NCBI GenBank assembly: GCA_020347565.1
Contig: CP070732.1
Span: 170,516 to 234,515 of the forward strand
Direction: 5' to 3'
Length of the DNA stretch: 64,000 bases
Origin: Methanobacteriota archaeon
GTDB taxonomy: Archaea; Thermoplasmatota; Thermoplasmata; UBA10834
In this document: positions 53,191 through 61,337 of the stretch, one piece after another
How the letters are laid out: each line of letters starts with the position of its first letter
How positions within the stretch are numbered: the stretch's first letter is position 1
The notes under the pieces: model-generated
The model's input: only the letters and a program-made list of their open reading frames with translations
The model's database searches: none
Told to the model about the DNA's origin: nothing
Program-made: the position numbers and the translations under genes

Positions 53191-53691
53191 ATGTGGGACA
53201 AGATAGCGAACTACTTCGAGAAATACCCGTCTCAGGCGAAGGTCGCGAGGTACCTTCTGAAGTACGGGTTGCGCATCGACCGCGATCATGTGTACTGCGG
53301 GGACGTGCAGATTGCCGACTCCGCACTCGCGAGGGCTGCCCACGTAGACCGCAGGGTCGTCAAGTCCACAATCGAGACCATCAAGGGCGACCCGACGCTG
53401 CTCAGGTTCTTCTCACAGCTGCTGCCCACGAACCACCTGAAGAACGCAGCCTCCGCAATGGGTTGGAGCGCGATCGAGATAGTGCCCATGAACGCCCACG
53501 AACCGGGCATCATATCGGGTGTGGTGGAGATACTGTCAAGGTCCAACATCAGCATACGACAGGCGATAGTCGACGACCCGATGACTTCGGAGGAGCCGAG
53601 ATTGTTCATCGTCACCGAGAGCACCGTGCCCTCCGAGACGATCCCGCTCATCCGCCAGGCCAGGGGCGTCAAGGGCGTAACGATTTACTGA
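53191..53691 (+). CDS. ACT-domain regulator of amino acid metabolism (COG2150-like)
   Basis: The product (166 residues) has an N-terminal winged-helix-like part (AKVARYLLKYGLRI, SALARAAHVDRRVVKSTIET) and a C-terminal ACT domain (about 90-166, EPGIISGVVEILSRSNISIR, ESTVPSETIPLIRQARGVKG). This arrangement is that of archaeal regulators that bind an amino acid through ACT. Divergent to the operon that makes aromatic amino acids and homocysteine, it is the likely controller of that operon. Confidence 0.85.
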   Translation: MWDKIANYFEKYPSQAKVARYLLKYGLRIDRDHVYCGDVQIADSALARAAHVDRRVVKSTIETIKGDPTLLRFFSQLLPTNHLKNAASAMGWSAIEIVPMNAHEPGIISGVVEILSRSNISIRQAIVDDPMTSEEPRLFIVTESTVPSETIPLIRQARGVKGVTIY

Positions 53692-53731: not shown

Positions 53732-54628
53732 GTGAACCGGGAGTTGACGCAGACCGATTCGTCGAGGGCGTACCTCGCCATCGCGGTGGCGATGATATCG
53801 ATCTCGTTCGCTTCCATATTCATCAAGTGGAGCGAGTCCGAGCCTTTCGTCCTCGCCTTCTACAGGCTCGCGTTCACCTGCATGATACTGCTGCCTTTCA
53901 TGTTTTGGTCCAGGGGGTTCTCCGAGATGAGGGCGCTCGATAGGCGTGACTGGGCCCTGATCGTGCTCAGCGCTGCCGCGCTGTCGCTTCACTTCGGCCT
54001 GTGGATAGTCTCCCTCGGGCTCACGCTGGTCGCGACTTCCGTCGTGCTCGTCACCTCTCATCCGCTGTTCGTCGCGGGCGTCTCGCACTTCGTGATGAAG
54101 GAGCACGTGAAGAGGCTCGCCGCGGTCGGCATAGTGGTCGCCTTCTCCGGCGTGTGCGTCATAAGCGTCGCGGACTACGGCGAGGGCAGCTCGACGCTCC
54201 TCGGCGACGCCCTGGCATTCCTCGGCGGCATCTGCGCGGGAGTATACTTCCTGTCGGGCAGGAGGGCACGTCAGAGGATATCCCTCGCTCCGTACGTGTT
54301 CTCCGTTTACCTGCTCTCGTCACTTATGCTCGCGTTGGGGGCGGTCGCCGTGGGGGATGCCCTCCTCGTCACGGACTCGCGTGAGCTGACGCTCTTCCTG
54401 TTGCTTGCCATCGTTCCCACGATATTCGGCCACACGATGTTCAACTACGCCCTCAGGAAGCTCCCGGCGCACATCATATCGACGAGCGTCTTGGGCGAGC
54501 CCGTCGGCGCGTCGCTTCTCGCCTTCCTGCTCCTGCCAGGCGAAGTCCCGGGCCCGTGGATCGTGCTCGGTGGAGCGCTCGTGATAGGGGGGCTATACAT
54601 CGTTCTGTCCAGGAGCGCCCTGCGGTGA
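53732..54628 (+). CDS. EamA/DMT-superfamily transporter
   Basis: The product (298 residues) has ten predicted membrane helices in two EamA repeats. The first starts YLAIAVAMISISFASIFIKW, and the second carries GDALAFLGGICAGVYFLSGR. Such carriers move amino acids or other small metabolites. GTG 53732 follows GGGGGAG by only one base and TTG 53744 is 13 bases away, so the exact start is open. It precedes the corrinoid methyltransferase genes on the same strand and may export or import their substrate. Confidence 0.85.
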   Translation: MNRELTQTDSSRAYLAIAVAMISISFASIFIKWSESEPFVLAFYRLAFTCMILLPFMFWSRGFSEMRALDRRDWALIVLSAAALSLHFGLWIVSLGLTLVATSVVLVTSHPLFVAGVSHFVMKEHVKRLAAVGIVVAFSGVCVISVADYGEGSSTLLGDALAFLGGICAGVYFLSGRRARQRISLAPYVFSVYLLSSLMLALGAVAVGDALLVTDSRELTLFLLLAIVPTIFGHTMFNYALRKLPAHIISTSVLGEPVGASLLAFLLLPGEVPGPWIVLGGALVIGGLYIVLSRSALR

Positions 54629-54778: not shown

Positions 54779-56212
54779 ATGGCGGTCGCGCGGTTCGTAC
54801 TTCTATCCAAAGAAGAGCAGGATCTGATACACCAATACAGCCTGAAGAGCCTCCAGGAAATCGGAATGCTGATCCGGAGCGACTCCACCCTGAAGATGCT
54901 CCAGGATGCAGGGGCCGAGGTCGATCATTCGAAGAAGATCGCGAAGATGCCCGAGTCGATGGTGGACGAGGCACTCAAGGGAGCGCCGAAATCCATAAGG
55001 CTGTGCGCGAGGGATGGCAAGAACGACCTCCCGATACCAGTCGGCGGTCCGCCATTCGTGGCGACCACCGGCCTGGGCGTCTACGTGAGGGATATGGACA
55101 CCGGTGAGAAGCGGCCGTCCACCAGAGAGGACATCGCCGACTTCATACGTCTTGCGGACGGCCTTGGGGGCGTGGACTTCGTCTGGACGTCGATAACCGC
55201 CAACGACGTACCTCAGTTCTCACACGGCCTGCACGAACTCTGGACCGCCATGCAGAACACCACGAAGCACGTCAACGGCGTGTCGATAATGAGCGCGCCC
55301 GACTCGAGGAAGCAGATAGAGCTGGCTTCGCTCATCGCCGGCGGAGAGGATGAGCTCAGGAAGCGGCCCCTTTTCTCCGTGATATGCTGCTCGATCGCTC
55401 CGCTGTCGTACGAGGGGGGAGTCGTCGAAGGCATGGTCGAGTTCGTCAAGGCGGGCGTTCCCGTCATGTCCATGTCGATGTCGCTCTCCGGCGGCACAGC
55501 TCCGGTCACCTTGGCGGGCACCCTGACGAACGCGAACACCGAGAACCTCGCCAGTCTCGTGATAACGCAGACGGCGGCGCCGGGCTCACCTCACATCTAT
55601 TGCTCTTCATCCGCGCCGATAAGCATGAAGACCGGCGTCATCAACTACATGTCGCCCGAGCAGTGCCTGATCGCGGCAGGACTCGGACAGATGGCTCGAA
55701 GGTACGGCCTTCCGTCGATGGTCGGTGACTGGGGCGTCAACGACTCAGAGACCCCGGGGGTGCCGCACTCTTTCACAGAGACCATGGGAGTGGCGCTTAG
55801 CACGATGGGCAACTCGGACCTCGTCTCCGGCATCGGAGGGATAGACGCGGTGAAGGGCGTGTCCTTCGAACAGGCGGTCATCGAGTCCTACATATGGGAG
55901 AACTTCAAGGGCTTCATGAGGGAGTTCCTGGTATCGCCAGAGACGATAGCCCTCGACGTGGTCAGGCAGGTGGGCCACGGCAACACGTTCCTCACGCATC
56001 CGCACACGGCGAAGAACTTCCGGAAAGAGCTCTTCTTCCGCGACAAGGCGAAGCTCGCGTGGGAGGCGACGCTTTCGGATAGTATGGTCCCTCAGGCCAA
56101 GGAGGCAGCGCGGCAGATCCTGAGGGAGCACTCGGTAGAGAAGGTGGACGGCTCCGTCATAGCCGAGGGCGACAGGCTGATCAGGGAGTACGAGAGCGCC
56201 GCGGGCGTCTGA
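54779..56212 (+). CDS. MttB-superfamily methyltransferase without pyrrolysine (copy 1)
   Basis: The product (477 residues) is a full-length trimethylamine methyltransferase homologue (family length about 480-495). It has YSLKSLQEIGMLI at the N-terminus, FIRLADGLGGVDFVW, NTTKHVNGVS, and GVPVMSMSMSLSGGTAPVTL. The segment holding pyrrolysine in MttB reads LPSMVGDWG here, with no amber codon in frame, so it belongs with the MtgB-like members that demethylate quaternary amines. ATG 54779 has GGGAG 8 bases upstream. The likely partner is the corrinoid protein 1.7 kb downstream. Confidence 0.88.
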   Translation: MAVARFVLLSKEEQDLIHQYSLKSLQEIGMLIRSDSTLKMLQDAGAEVDHSKKIAKMPESMVDEALKGAPKSIRLCARDGKNDLPIPVGGPPFVATTGLGVYVRDMDTGEKRPSTREDIADFIRLADGLGGVDFVWTSITANDVPQFSHGLHELWTAMQNTTKHVNGVSIMSAPDSRKQIELASLIAGGEDELRKRPLFSVICCSIAPLSYEGGVVEGMVEFVKAGVPVMSMSMSLSGGTAPVTLAGTLTNANTENLASLVITQTAAPGSPHIYCSSSAPISMKTGVINYMSPEQCLIAAGLGQMARRYGLPSMVGDWGVNDSETPGVPHSFTETMGVALSTMGNSDLVSGIGGIDAVKGVSFEQAVIESYIWENFKGFMREFLVSPETIALDVVRQVGHGNTFLTHPHTAKNFRKELFFRDKAKLAWEATLSDSMVPQAKEAARQILREHSVEKVDGSVIAEGDRLIREYESAAGV

Positions 56213-56290
56213 GGGCCTCGGCTAAGCGAATGGCCAGACGGGCGGCTGCGCTCATGCTTCCTGTGCGGTGCCTGAAGAACGTATCCCAAA

Positions 56291-56300
56291 ACCCTTTTAC
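56291..56300 (+). promoter_or_regulatory. possible promoter box of the second MttB-like gene
   Basis: ACCCTTTTAC lies 42-51 bases before the GTG at 56342. The same core (AACCCTTTTA) recurs at 57885-57894 before the corrinoid gene, which suggests a shared promoter type or common regulator for the cluster. Confidence 0.4.
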
Positions 56301-56341
56301 GACTGTCGGGGCCTGTCGGCTCCGATCATATAGACAGGGAG

Positions 56342-57793
56342 GTGGCAGAGATTCCTGCCTTCGCTGACAGATTCAGAGTGAGACAGCCGCAATCGGTGAT
56401 GAAGGAGTCGGATAGGAAGAAGGTACACGAGGCGTCCCTGGACGTGCTCGAGACGGTCGGTATCAGGGTTATGAGCAAAGATGCCAGGGCCGCCCTGAAG
56501 GACGCAGGGGCGGAGGTCGACGATAGCAGCGCCGTCGTGAAGTTCCCGGAAGGCCTCGTTGACTCGCTGATGAGGACCGTGCCGTCCAAGATCGTCCTCG
56601 CAGGCAGGACGAAGGAGCACGACCTTCCCCTGGACGGAACCCATCACTACTACACCACGGACGGGTGCGGGATATACACATGGGACCAGAAGACGCAGAC
56701 CCGGAACGAGTCCGTCCTCGCTGATATCACGAAGACCGCAATAATCGGCGATGGGCTTCCATATCTCAGCATATACGAACCGATGGTCGTTGCCAACGAC
56801 GTCCCATCGAAGATACACGTTCTATCCGGAGTCAGGGAGGCCATGAGGAATACCTCAAAGCACATCGAGACGGAATCCACAACGACACCCGACGAGGCGA
56901 GAGCCCAGGTGAGGATGGCGGCCGAGGTTGTGGGCTCCGCTGAGGAGATGAGGAAGCGGCACTACATCTCGGCCATGGTTTGCACTATCTCGCCCCTGGT
57001 GCTCGACGCTGGCGCCACGGACGCCGCGATGGTCTGGGCGGACAACCACGTCCCGGTCCACATAACGGGCATGGCGAGCATGGGTCTCAGCGGCCCCGCG
57101 ACGATCGGCGGAGCGCTGACCGTTAACCATGCCGAGACGCTCGCCCTGGCCTGCGCCATGCAGGCGAGGTCGCCCGGTGCCCCTGCCCTCTACGGCTCAG
57201 TCCAGTCCAGCATGGACGCCCGTACCGGTGCGTACAACTCCGGCTCTCCGGAGACGATTCTGCTGAGCATAGGGAACGTCGAGATGGCGAAGCACTGCAG
57301 GATGCCGTGCTCCGCCGGTGGGACGGGCGGCAGTTCCAGGATACCGGGCCTCCGCGCATCGATAGAGAACGCCGTTCTGTCGCCTCCGCTTGCGGCCGTC
57401 GGGAGCGAGGTCATGAACGGCATAGGGCTCGCGGACGGCTCGACGCTGCTGTCGTACGAGCAGATGATCCTCGACCACGAGATCGTGGGGCTGATACTCA
57501 ACTCGCACAGGGCCATCGAGATAGACGACGACTCGCTCGCGCTCGACCTGATCAAGAAGGTGGGCATAGGAGGCACGTACCTTGCGGAGATGCACACGCT
57601 CAAGAACGTCAGAGGGTTCTACTCTCCGATGCTCTGGGACATGTCGCCATTCGAATCCTGGGTCGCGGGAGGAAAGAAGGATCTGATGGACGTCGCACTC
57701 GAAAAGGCTCAGAAGATACTCTCCGATCACAAGCCTGAGCCCCTGGACGCAGACAAGACCAAGGCGCTGGACGAGATAGTGGCAGGGGTCTGA
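56342..57793 (+). CDS. MttB-superfamily methyltransferase without pyrrolysine (copy 2)
   Basis: The product (483 residues) is homologous to copy 1 but clearly diverged. It has VHEASLDVLETVGIRV, YTTDGCGIYTWD, FPEGLVDSLM, a central ISPLVLDAGATDAAMVWADN and HITGMASMGLSGPATIGG. The region matching the pyrrolysine site reads MPCSAGGTGGSSRIPG, again without an amber codon. Two different MttB paralogues beside one corrinoid protein suggest two substrates, or one acting as a helper. GTG 56342 directly follows a purine-rich GGGAG, so the start could also be a little downstream. Confidence 0.87.
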   Translation: MAEIPAFADRFRVRQPQSVMKESDRKKVHEASLDVLETVGIRVMSKDARAALKDAGAEVDDSSAVVKFPEGLVDSLMRTVPSKIVLAGRTKEHDLPLDGTHHYYTTDGCGIYTWDQKTQTRNESVLADITKTAIIGDGLPYLSIYEPMVVANDVPSKIHVLSGVREAMRNTSKHIETESTTTPDEARAQVRMAAEVVGSAEEMRKRHYISAMVCTISPLVLDAGATDAAMVWADNHVPVHITGMASMGLSGPATIGGALTVNHAETLALACAMQARSPGAPALYGSVQSSMDARTGAYNSGSPETILLSIGNVEMAKHCRMPCSAGGTGGSSRIPGLRASIENAVLSPPLAAVGSEVMNGIGLADGSTLLSYEQMILDHEIVGLILNSHRAIEIDDDSLALDLIKKVGIGGTYLAEMHTLKNVRGFYSPMLWDMSPFESWVAGGKKDLMDVALEKAQKILSDHKPEPLDADKTKALDEIVAGV

Positions 57794-57886
57794 CGCGCAG
57801 GCCGTGACTTCGTCGCCGGCGACCGTGCGCAGAAAGCTCGTGCTCCAGCGAAGGCAAGGCGTGCTCTCCGCGATGGCGACTGTAAC

Positions 57887-57897
57887 CCTTTTAATCC
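57887..57897 (+). promoter_or_regulatory. possible promoter box of the corrinoid protein gene
   Basis: CCTTTTAATCC would start transcription near 57921, 40 bases before the ATG at 57962. It shares the AACCCTTTTA core with the box before the second MttB-like gene. Confidence 0.45.
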
Positions 57898-57961
57898 GTG
57901 AACGAAGATACCCCCGCGAGGCGGCTGGCCGCCATGTGGCCTGCCGCATAGGGGAGAGTCA

Positions 57962-58606
57962 ATGGACGAGAAGAACGTGTTGAAGATGCTCGGAAACGCC
58001 ATCGAGACTTATGATTCTGGTGCTGCTGAGAAAGCCGCGAAGGAAGCCGTGAAGTCGAAAGTCGACCCGCTGAAGGCGATCGAGGCGGGCCTGGCACCGG
58101 CCATCGAGCGTGTGGGTGATAAGTTCGAGAAGATGGAGGTGTACCTGCCCGAGCTGATGCTCGCCGCGGATGCCATGAAGTCAGCGATGACCGTCTTGAT
58201 GCCGCTGATACCGAAGGACAAGAAGGTTTCGAAGGCGACGGTCGTCATCGGGACCGTACAGGGGGACATCCACGAGATCGGCAAGAACATTGTCTCGAAC
58301 ATGCTGATGGCAAACGGGTTCGATGTCGTGGACCTCGGGGTCAACGTCAAGACCTCGGCTTTCGTGGACGAGGCGAAGCGCACTAAGGCGAAGATAATAG
58401 GCGCATCCGCGCTCATGTCCAGCACCATCGGGTCTCAGAAAGACATCATCGACTACCTCGTCTCCCTCAAGGAGCGCAAGAAGTACGGGTTGATGGTGGG
58501 CGGCGGGCCCACGACAGGCGAGTGGGCGAAGGAGATCGGCGCTGACGGCTGGGGCGAGGATGCGGCATCGACCGTGAAGCTCGCAAACAAGCTCTCCAAG
58601 GGATAG
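57962..58606 (+). CDS. corrinoid protein of methyltransferase systems (MttC/MtmC-like)
   Basis: The product (214 residues) has an N-terminal four-helix cap (about 1-88, PLKAIEAGLAPAIERVGDKF) and a Rossmann-type B12 domain. The cobalt-ligand motif GDIHEIGKN has its histidine at residue 104, followed by VVDLGVNV, ASALMSSTIG and GLMVGGGPTT. It carries the methyl group between a methylamine-type substrate methyltransferase and a downstream acceptor. It lies between the MttB-like and MtmB-like genes, 7 bases before the latter. Confidence 0.94.
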   Translation: MDEKNVLKMLGNAIETYDSGAAEKAAKEAVKSKVDPLKAIEAGLAPAIERVGDKFEKMEVYLPELMLAADAMKSAMTVLMPLIPKDKKVSKATVVIGTVQGDIHEIGKNIVSNMLMANGFDVVDLGVNVKTSAFVDEAKRTKAKIIGASALMSSTIGSQKDIIDYLVSLKERKKYGLMVGGGPTTGEWAKEIGADGWGEDAASTVKLANKLSKG

Positions 58607-58613
58607 TGGTCGC

Positions 58614-59999
58614 TTGACCCAGATCCTCGACGTGATGGAGAAGTCGCTCGAGGGCAAGCCTATGAGCGAGACGGACTACCAGCTCAGAAGCTTCGCGCCG
58701 AAAGTGAAGGAGAAGGTCAGAGAGTACGACATCAGGTTCGACCCGAAGGCCCCGATACCCGACGATGGCTCTCTTGCCGATGACATGTTCGGGGCTGCAA
58801 CGGAGCTGCTCGCCGAGGTCGGCGCGTACTGCACTAGTACAGCCCGCGTCATATCGTTCTCAGAGAAGGAGATCAGGAGGGCGGTCACCGAGGCACCAAA
58901 GGAGATCGAGCTGGGCGAGGGCCGCGACCGCAAGAGGCTGAGAGGAAGGAAGGTCGGGGACAAGACGCCTCCCTGGTGCCTTCTAGGCGCTGGGGGCGGG
59001 GCGTGCTCCAGCGACAGGTCGTTCATCACGCTTGTCGAAGGGTACGCCGAGATACCGGAGACGAACGGCATCACGACGCCGGCCTTGACGCGTGTCGGCG
59101 GGATGAGGATCCGGCCGGCCTCCCCGCTGGAGATCCTGGGCGCGATGAGGAATGCAGCCCTGGCCAGGGAGACGTGCAACCGTGTCGGCCGCGAGGGCAT
59201 CCCTATCATGAACTCTCTCTCCACGGCCGAGTCGGACATCGCCTTCGCGGCCGCGCTGCACCCCAAGTACGGTATGCGCAGGTCCGATGCATACATGATA
59301 TGCTGCATGGATCCGATGAAGGCCGACTTCGCGCGGCTCAACAAGGTGACTACGGCTTTGTCGCTCGGAGGAGCCATCGGCATGTGCGAGGGGCCTCTAC
59401 TGGGAGGGTACTCGGGCGGACCTGAGGGGACTGCCCTGTCCAACATCGCCCACCATCTGATGGGCATATTGACGTATCAGGCCAGCTGGATATTGCCGTT
59501 CCCGCTGCATCTCAGATACGTCTCCAGCAGCTGCAGGGAGCTGCTCTGGGTCATAAGCACGACAGGCCAGGCCGTCAGCAGGAACTCCGACATCATAAGC
59601 CTGAACCTCAACTACACGTCCGCTGGACCTTGCACCACGATGTGCCTTTTCGAGACATCGGCGTCCGTGCTCGCGGCCGTGACCGCGGGCCTGTCGATAG
59701 AGTCCGTCGGCGTCGCATCCAACAGGTACGAGGACCGTACGACGCCCGTCGAGCCCAGAATCTCGGCCGAGGTGGGGTACGCTGTCGCGGGCATGAAGCT
59801 CCCGGACGCTAACGAGATTGCGGTGAAGCTGCTGGCCAAGTACGAGTCGAAGCTCTCCAAACCGCCCCTTGGGAAGGGCCTGTACGAGTGCTGGGACGCG
59901 GAGAGGAGGAGGCCGTCGAAGGAATACAGAACGGTCATCAGGTCCTTCAAACGGTCGATGTCCAGGCTGGGCGTCGACCTGAAGGGAGAGACCGCTTGA
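58614..59999 (+). CDS. MtmB-like (monomethylamine methyltransferase family) protein with methionine at the pyrrolysine site
   Basis: The product (461 residues) matches MtmB of Methanosarcina (458) along its length: AYCTSTARVISFSEKEI, GRKVGDKTPP, PLEILGAMRN, GPLLGGYSGGPEGTAL, SAGPCTTMCLFETSAS and GKGLYECWD. In MtmB, residue 202 is pyrrolysine in GMAVxGPETS. The aligned stretch here is GIPIMNSLSTAES, with M199 in its place and no amber codon. Without pyrrolysine the ammonium-activating chemistry must differ, so the substrate is unlikely to be plain methylamine. It is probably cotranscribed with the corrinoid gene. Confidence 0.87.
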   Translation: MTQILDVMEKSLEGKPMSETDYQLRSFAPKVKEKVREYDIRFDPKAPIPDDGSLADDMFGAATELLAEVGAYCTSTARVISFSEKEIRRAVTEAPKEIELGEGRDRKRLRGRKVGDKTPPWCLLGAGGGACSSDRSFITLVEGYAEIPETNGITTPALTRVGGMRIRPASPLEILGAMRNAALARETCNRVGREGIPIMNSLSTAESDIAFAAALHPKYGMRRSDAYMICCMDPMKADFARLNKVTTALSLGGAIGMCEGPLLGGYSGGPEGTALSNIAHHLMGILTYQASWILPFPLHLRYVSSSCRELLWVISTTGQAVSRNSDIISLNLNYTSAGPCTTMCLFETSASVLAAVTAGLSIESVGVASNRYEDRTTPVEPRISAEVGYAVAGMKLPDANEIAVKLLAKYESKLSKPPLGKGLYECWDAERRRPSKEYRTVIRSFKRSMSRLGVDLKGETA

Positions 60000-60719: not shown

Positions 60720-61337
60720 ATGGGTTTGGACGAGGTTGACAGGAAGATACTGAAGGAGCTTCAGACCGACGGGCGCGCGTCGTTCAGGGAGCTCTCATCG
60801 AGGATCAAGGTGAGCACCCCGACCGTCAGCTCGAGAGTACAGACTATGACGGACAACGGGCTCATCAAGGGCTACTCCGTGCTTCTCGACGCCGACATGC
60901 TCGGCCAGATATCAGTCGCCACGTTGCTGGAGGCCAAGCCATCCGACATAGACCGCGTCGTCAACAGGATAAAGGACGAGGAGATCGTCCGGCAGATACA
61001 TGTCCTGTCCGACTCGCGCGTGCTCTGCGTATTGTCGTTCTACGACCAGAAGCGCTACCAGAGCTTCGTTCAGTCTCTCTCGAACATAGCCGAGATACAC
61101 AGAATCGACAACTCGATGATTCTCAGGACGGCGAAGGAGCTCCCCAGGGCTTCGCTCACCGACGAGACGGGGCTGCTGATCAAGTGCTACTACTGTGGGC
61201 ACATGATCAAGGACGAAGGGGTCAAGATCAAGCTGGACGGGAAGACGCACTACCTGTGTTGCGGCGTATGTGCGAAGCTGTACAAGGAGAAGTACGAGAA
61301 GATGAAGCAAGCGGCCATCGGCGCGGCCGTCGCCTGA
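60720..61337 (+). CDS. Lrp/AsnC-family regulator with C-terminal TRASH metal-binding domain
   Basis: The product (205 residues) has an AsnC-type winged helix (LDEVDRKILKELQTDGRASF, helix-turn-helix to about 55), a RAM/effector domain (about 62-140), and a TRASH zinc-ribbon-like motif CYYCGHM with HYLCCGVCAKLYKEKY at about 158-192. Archaeal regulators of this build, such as CopT, sense copper or other metals. The target gene is not clear; the parvulin gene lies divergently upstream. The ATG is close to an AGTATAAC box. Confidence 0.85.
   Translation: MGLDEVDRKILKELQTDGRASFRELSSRIKVSTPTVSSRVQTMTDNGLIKGYSVLLDADMLGQISVATLLEAKPSDIDRVVNRIKDEEIVRQIHVLSDSRVLCVLSFYDQKRYQSFVQSLSNIAEIHRIDNSMILRTAKELPRASLTDETGLLIKCYYCGHMIKDEGVKIKLDGKTHYLCCGVCAKLYKEKYEKMKQAAIGAAVA

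Follow-up and report, generated by a model that had tools for sequence, protein, structure and literature searches.

Methyltransferases of the corrinoid-dependent MttB and MtmB families that function without pyrrolysine (Pyl) are known from a few systems, against which we compare a cluster of two MttB-like proteins, a corrinoid protein, and an MtmB-like protein encoded in a 64,000-nucleotide stretch of an archaeal genome (contig CP070732.1, positions 170,516 to 234,515; hereafter the window, whose numbering is used unless host genome coordinates are indicated). Non-Pyl MttBs, shared corrinoid proteins, and one functional non-Pyl MtmB are already known, and methylotrophic Thermoplasmata have been proposed. 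MtqB of Methanococcoides methylutens Q3c is an assayed non-Pyl MtmB acting on tetramethylammonium and choline (PMC13044021); like the window pair, MtqB/MtqC joins a non-Pyl homologue of MtmB to a dedicated corrinoid protein, although its host is a methanogen with coenzyme M as the methyl acceptor and the likeness is one of description. In Eubacterium limosum, three MttB enzymes (MtyB, MtcB, and MtpB) use one corrinoid protein (MtqC), while mtqA and ramQ are encoded elsewhere (PMC8604678). This system is similar in combining several non-Pyl MttBs, one corrinoid protein, and a separate methylcorrinoid methyltransferase (MtxA) that forms methyl-tetrahydrofolate (methyl-H4F), and in keeping its reactivase and MtxA genes away from those of the substrate enzymes, but it is bacterial and, as described, has no MtmB-family member, the MttB subfamilies being comparable by description only. 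"Candidatus Gimiplasmatales," reported as methylotrophic and possibly acetogenic Thermoplasmata (PMC11264602), share with our host a non-methanogenic lifestyle, mttB, mttC, and mtmB, the H4F branch, and the carbon monoxide dehydrogenase/acetyl-CoA synthase (CODH/ACS). Another non-Pyl MtmB is strongly induced in strain DCMF (PMC9768040), and non-Pyl MttB has been proposed in non-methanogenic Asgard archaea (PMC11291895).

Since the host encodes RACo proteins, an MtxA candidate, and the genes of an H4F Wood-Ljungdahl pathway, the cluster is most likely a Pyl-independent methylated-amine:H4F demethylation module and not one of methanogenesis. We consider it probable that it represents the substrate-facing part of a Pyl-independent, corrinoid-dependent demethylation system in a non-methanogenic archaeon, which feeds the H4F Wood-Ljungdahl pathway via MtxA and RACo. 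What is new is (i) a corrinoid-MtmB unit conserved in the order, (ii) its residue signature, (iii) its link to two MttBs in one genus, and (iv) the MtxA and RACo candidates.

All four cluster genes are encoded on the + strand at full length and without an internal stop, and their family E values are far past chance (Table 1). An earlier note, made from the sequence alone, had described this set as free of in-frame amber codons in its methyltransferases and preceded by a DMT transporter. Each of these points is borne out by profile matches to open + strand frames at the positions it gave, by the only TAG among the four genes being the terminal stop of the corrinoid gene, and by the EamA gene upstream. 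The full-length, amber-free PF06253 matches of both MttBs place them in the non-Pyl MttB superfamily; the TIGR02369 score of MttB-a falls under the equivalog cut-off of 525. The start of MttB-a agrees with those of its relatives, and for MttB-b, whose relatives begin with FA.RFRV, a GTG start at 56342 is favored. The corrinoid protein carries DIHEIG and GGGPT motifs (E values of the B12-binding domain matches, 1e-24 and 2e-18), and the MtmB-like gene, with a probable TTG start 7 bp past the corrinoid gene, scores 307.6 bits over its full length against a PF05369 cut-off of 25.

Table 1. Coordinates of the cluster, its neighbors, and candidate partner genes (window positions, or host genome coordinates where marked G000)
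Feature	Location	Strand	Supporting matches or domain position
TrpY-family transcription regulator, upstream of cluster	53191-53691	+	NF053754, 185.5 bits (cut-off 180)
EamA/DMT-family transporter	53732-54628	+	PF00892, E 4e-29
MttB-a, non-Pyl MttB-superfamily methyltransferase	54779-56212	+	PF06253, E 3e-69; TIGR02369, 371 bits
MttB-b, second non-Pyl MttB-superfamily methyltransferase	about 56342-57793	+	PF06253, E 3e-86
Corrinoid-binding protein (MtxC type)	57962-58606	+	PF02310; PF02607; NF047995, 195 bits
MtmB-like, non-Pyl MtmB-family methyltransferase	58614-59999	+	PF05369, E 2e-91
Lrp/AsnC regulator with C-terminal TRASH domain	60720-61337	+	PF13404; PF24273
RACo-type reactivase 1	G000 670658-672550		C-terminal domain 670679-671455
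RACo-type reactivase 2	G000 886643-888553		C-terminal domain 887744-888520
MtxA candidate, divergent AcsE/MtgA-like methyltransferase	G000 678223-679092		PRK07535, 265 bits (cut-off 259)

The MtmB-like protein has the fold and family of the Pyl-containing MtmB of Methanosarcina barkeri (1NTH, 1L2Q), to which it is about 32% identical: its AlphaFold2 model (pLDDT 90.9) has a TM-score of 0.94 to 1NTH, and it aligns end to end with 1L2Q. It differs in that Met199 and Asn200 occupy the columns of Pyl202 and Gly203 and in that three further positions are changed, while its host lacks PylS over the cut-off. Met-Asn replaces Pyl-Gly in all 26 non-Pyl MtmB sequences, which a tree separates from 11 Pyl sequences as a clade supported at 100/100. 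Residues Glu229, Glu259, and Gln333, which contact Pyl in the MtmB structures, are invariant in the 11 Pyl-MtmB sequences compared and read E229->M, E259->C, and Q333->L in the window protein (Met228 and Cys258 in its own numbering); at position 259, members of the host family's corrinoid-linked clade have Cys, and stand-alone paralogues have Asp. With no amber codon at the Pyl202 column and the polar triad changed, the window protein falls outside the Pyl-dependent MtmBs, and these positions together with Met-Asn provide a clear signature for an MtmB working without Pyl. A sequencing error or degenerate Pyl gene is ruled out because the Met-Asn signature is common to 26 sequences in several phyla, and demethylation of plain monomethylamine was not favored, since neither the Pyl residue nor any of its three polar contact positions is retained. 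The loss of polar groups expected around the substrate would fit a quaternary or otherwise bulky methylated amine.

At the heart of the cluster is an old unit, the corrinoid-MtmB pair, which is conserved across the order. In the host genus (g1, genomes G002 to G006, with G000 the host itself, g2 and g3 further genera, and f2 a second family), G002, G004, and G005 share with the window the arrangement TrpY-EamA-MttB-MttB-corrinoid-MtmB, with PpiC, Lrp, and Thi4 after it, while G006 retains the MttB-MttB-corrinoid-MtmB block and G003 the portion present on its contig; the EamA link is confined to g1, where the TrpY link is also seen. The other genera and the second family conserve the corrinoid-MtmB pair alone. 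Its two genes are separated by 7 bp in the window and in three members of the host genus, by 25 bp in G004, and by 4 to 5 bp in most of the remaining genomes; the pair is also present in Bathyarchaeota, Methanomethylicia, Desulfurococcaceae, and a spirochaete (MtmB identity, 46 to 57%). The corrinoid tree separates the corrinoid proteins of MtmB pairs from the MttB-linked ones of the host (support of 100/99 within the order and 80/86 for the wider group), and from this and the conservation of the pair it follows that the corrinoid protein is primarily the partner of MtmB. To date, function has been demonstrated for a single non-Pyl MtmB (PMC13044021), and the order supplies a conserved, testable pair in non-methanogens.

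The two MttBs are a genus-level addition to this unit, of which MttB-b has the older link: it is sister (100/98) to an MttB located about 2 kb from corrinoid-MtmB in the neighboring genus g3, and MttB-a belongs to a large lineage-specific expansion in the host. Like the glycine betaine methyltransferase MtgB (2QNE, 9YCE), both are MttB-superfamily members without Pyl. When checked for a betaine-type placement, which would have spoken against the earlier proposal of an undescribed substrate, neither grouped with MtgB, the sole betaine-type anchor in the tree, or with Pyl-MttB; MtgB is instead joined by two further MttBs of the host, at 268 and 274 kb (95/92).

The host genome is a single contig of 1.97 Mb from Thermoplasmata, estimated to be about 90% complete, and the host may fall within or close to "Ca. 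Gimiplasmatales"; named relatives of the window MtmB gene are Thermoplasmata metagenome-assembled genomes, e.g., RBG_13_57_23 and UBA9653. It encodes 19 MttBs and 2 MtmBs. No amber codon was found at the Pyl column among the 19 MttBs, and the one stop flagged, in the MttB at 682 kb, is a TGA, the gene keeping an open 480-amino-acid frame. The claim that the set is Pyl free is strengthened by comparison across 80 genomes, 5 of which contain PylS over the cut-off, exactly the five with an in-frame TAG in MtmB, whereas none of the 20 order members with a TAG-less MtmB, the host included, does so (as judged with the PylS C-terminal model; no search was made for pylBCD or tRNA-Pyl). None of the 21 order members, the host among them, has PylS over the cut-off or McrA, the lack of McrA agreeing with the non-methanogenic nature suggested for the host earlier. 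The host also lacks MtrH and any protein of the URO-D family (PF01208), and therefore any MtbA/MtaA-type protein. The earlier note had reported no MtbA, MtaA, or RamA gene and had left the methyl acceptor and the reactivation protein as open questions. This is correct for the stretch and, with respect to MtbA/MtaA, for the whole genome, but not with respect to the reactivase, since two proteins with RACo_C_ter domains are present; the supposedly missing functions can largely be assigned to these RACo proteins, two AcsE/MtgA-type methyltransferases, and an H4F Wood-Ljungdahl pathway encoded elsewhere in the genome.

Both RACo proteins have the full Fer2-RACo architecture, the closest solved relative of the first being the RACo structure 3ZYY. 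Pterin-binding proteins are encoded at three host sites: one is a genuine DHPS; another, located in a CODH/ACS region, is a genuine AcsE (246 bits against structure 2E7F of AcsE); and the third, at 678 kb, is a divergent AcsE-like protein. The last of these, whose best solved relatives are 2YCI and 4O0Q, is a candidate methylcorrinoid:H4F methyltransferase of the AcsE/MtgA/MtqA type on the basis of its sequence, and we refer to it as MtxA. Orthologues with 55 to 92% identity occur in 19 of the 21 order members (the host counted) and in none of 39 other genomes of the class, where AcsE-type or weaker matches only were obtained. In all 19, the AcsE pterin-site residues D75, N96, D160, and N199 are intact. 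MtxA adjoins corrinoid-MttB genes and an oligopeptide-type ABC transporter in genera g1 to g3 and adjoins RACo in family f2; at the host locus (L042:3221-9243, G000 about 678 to 684 kb), its neighbors are CorA, a corrinoid protein, and two MttBs, an arrangement conserved in the family, and the subunits of the ABC transporter there have PKD domains. The "Ca. Gimiplasmatales" paper reports no second methyltransferase (PMC11264602), and MtxA provides a concrete candidate for the enzyme unfound in that work on related Thermoplasmata.

The CODH/ACS region contains AcsC-, AcsD-, and CooC-like genes and one open reading frame (ORF) joining CODH and ACS domains, and at a second locus (L161:7119-14841, G000 about 1450 to 1458 kb), MTHFR, a MetV-like protein, MvhD/FlpD, two HdrA-like iron-sulfur proteins, and Fhs are encoded in a row, with FolD adjacent. 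In view of this region and the MTHFR-Fhs-FolD locus, H4F is the likely methyl carrier. The L161 set resembles an acetogen-like H4F methyl branch, here in an archaeon. The fused ORF (CODH [Prismane]-ACS, 1,378 amino acids, G000:C1:891754-895890) is also a single ORF in G002 (1,388 amino acids), G007, and G010 (1,379 amino acids each), i.e., the fusion is natural and kept in the host family; a literature search on CODH-ACS gene fusion returned no match.

On the basis of the family assignments, the absence of PylS and Mcr, and the linkage of MtxA and RACo to corrinoid systems, all of them read from sequence, we infer a reaction in which one corrinoid protein would serve three methyltransferases, with H4F as the acceptor and a methylated amine, probably quaternary or of the N-methylated amino acid type, as the substrate. 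The MtmB-like protein, as the core enzyme, and probably MttB-a and MttB-b too, would each transfer a methyl group from the amine onto the corrinoid protein in its Co(I) state; MtxA would pass it on to H4F; and either RACo would regenerate Co(I). The resulting methyl-H4F could then (i) enter the carbonyl branch, leading to acetyl-CoA through AcsE, AcsCD, and the fused CODH-ACS, or (ii) be oxidized via MTHFR, FolD, and Fhs. Both the use of methylated amines by these sediment archaea and a possible acetogenesis fed by them thus become testable.

Several observations weigh against this proposal: the MttB genes are separated by gaps of 125 to 185 bp, allowing for separate transcription units; because the host encodes 19 MttBs and no fewer than four corrinoid proteins, position alone cannot show partners; and the host genome being about 90% complete, the absences found in it are not absolute. 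Moreover, because the corrinoid protein groups with MtmB-linked ones, the window MttBs may use other corrinoid proteins. The latter could mean that the corrinoid protein serves MtmB alone, with MttB-a and MttB-b depending on corrinoid proteins encoded elsewhere, e.g., by the further host genes at about 680, 1402, and 1480 kb; this is plausible, in line with the conservation of only corrinoid-MtmB beyond the genus, yet we do not think it probable, as the sister family of MttB-b is found so close to corrinoid-MtmB in g3 and G002, G004, G005, and G006 have all four genes in the same order. That the cluster supports methanogenesis or is its unused remnant is extremely improbable: methanogens with McrA and Pyl-MtmB exist in the same class, which includes Pyl-using, McrA-bearing genomes, but the searches for McrA, MtrH, and MtbA/MtaA led us to reject this origin, and the cluster genes are intact and conserved across the order.

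With regard to the substrate, the genus-level neighbors EamA, TrpY, Thi4, and PpiC proved uninformative. A tentative suggestion is that the deep non-Pyl MtmB subfamily, with its Met-Asn signature and usually its own corrinoid gene, demethylates a substrate new to corrinoid systems, for instance an N-methylated omega-amino acid, and has in this order a dedicated AcsE-like MtxA feeding the H4F Wood-Ljungdahl pathway. It is somewhat doubtful that corrinoid-MtmB is instead an MtqBC-type system for choline or tetramethylammonium, with the MttBs acting on related betaines and no new substrate involved. As in that system, a non-Pyl MtmB is encoded beside its cognate corrinoid gene, and the pocket of MtqB is described as rich in sulfur and aromatic residues (PMC13044021), the residues being given there without mappable numbering. 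The window MtmB has Met199, Met228, and Cys258 at the Pyl, Glu229, and Glu259 columns, and several relatives have Phe or Tyr at position 260. On the other hand, with Glu at 260 in the window protein itself and Asp at 259 in the solo paralogue clade, the pocket differs among proteins of the order, and no choline-specific neighbor was found. Action of corrinoid-MtmB on an N-methylated omega-amino acid such as methylated beta-alanine, with both methyls and skeleton used, appears unlikely. It is hinted at by loci in which a CoA-acylating methylmalonate-semialdehyde dehydrogenase-like gene occurs in the vicinity of the pair, together with a class III aminotransferase in one case (Desulfurococcaceae, L117:3-2582) and without mention of the latter in the other (Methanomethylicia, L115:7573-8298, same dehydrogenase family), and by Lrp-family regulators near the pair in four archaea (the window and three unrelated ones, L114, L115, and L117). 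Against this, none of the Thermoplasmata loci read contained these dehydrogenase or aminotransferase neighbors, the observation comes from just two loci, Lrp regulators occur widely among archaea, and enzymes of the CoA-acylating dehydrogenase family act on other substrates as well.

A further lead comes from the stand-alone MtmB paralogue (L048:7846-10066, G000 about 1352 kb), which has no adjacent corrinoid gene and is preceded by a DDAH/arginine-deiminase-like protein, a pairing repeated in several genus members; this DDAH-family neighbor would point to methylated guanidino compounds. The omega-amino acid and guanidino leads are hints that stem from loci other than the window cluster.

Other loci showed additional features of these families. 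The corrinoid protein at about 1480 kb (L050:8313-8972), encoded next to an MttB, has GDILDIGKN in place of DxHxxG and so lacks the usual cobalt-ligand histidine. In the second family, a MetE-like catalytic domain (Meth_synt_2, 55 bits) is encoded on the other strand just past corrinoid-MtmB (L070:9819-10757) and possibly represents an alternative methyl acceptor route. Genes resembling saccharopine dehydrogenase are repeatedly found next to RACo, MttB, and MtmB genes in the host family (L080:13759-14967, L041:8311-9468, and L048:3824-4927).

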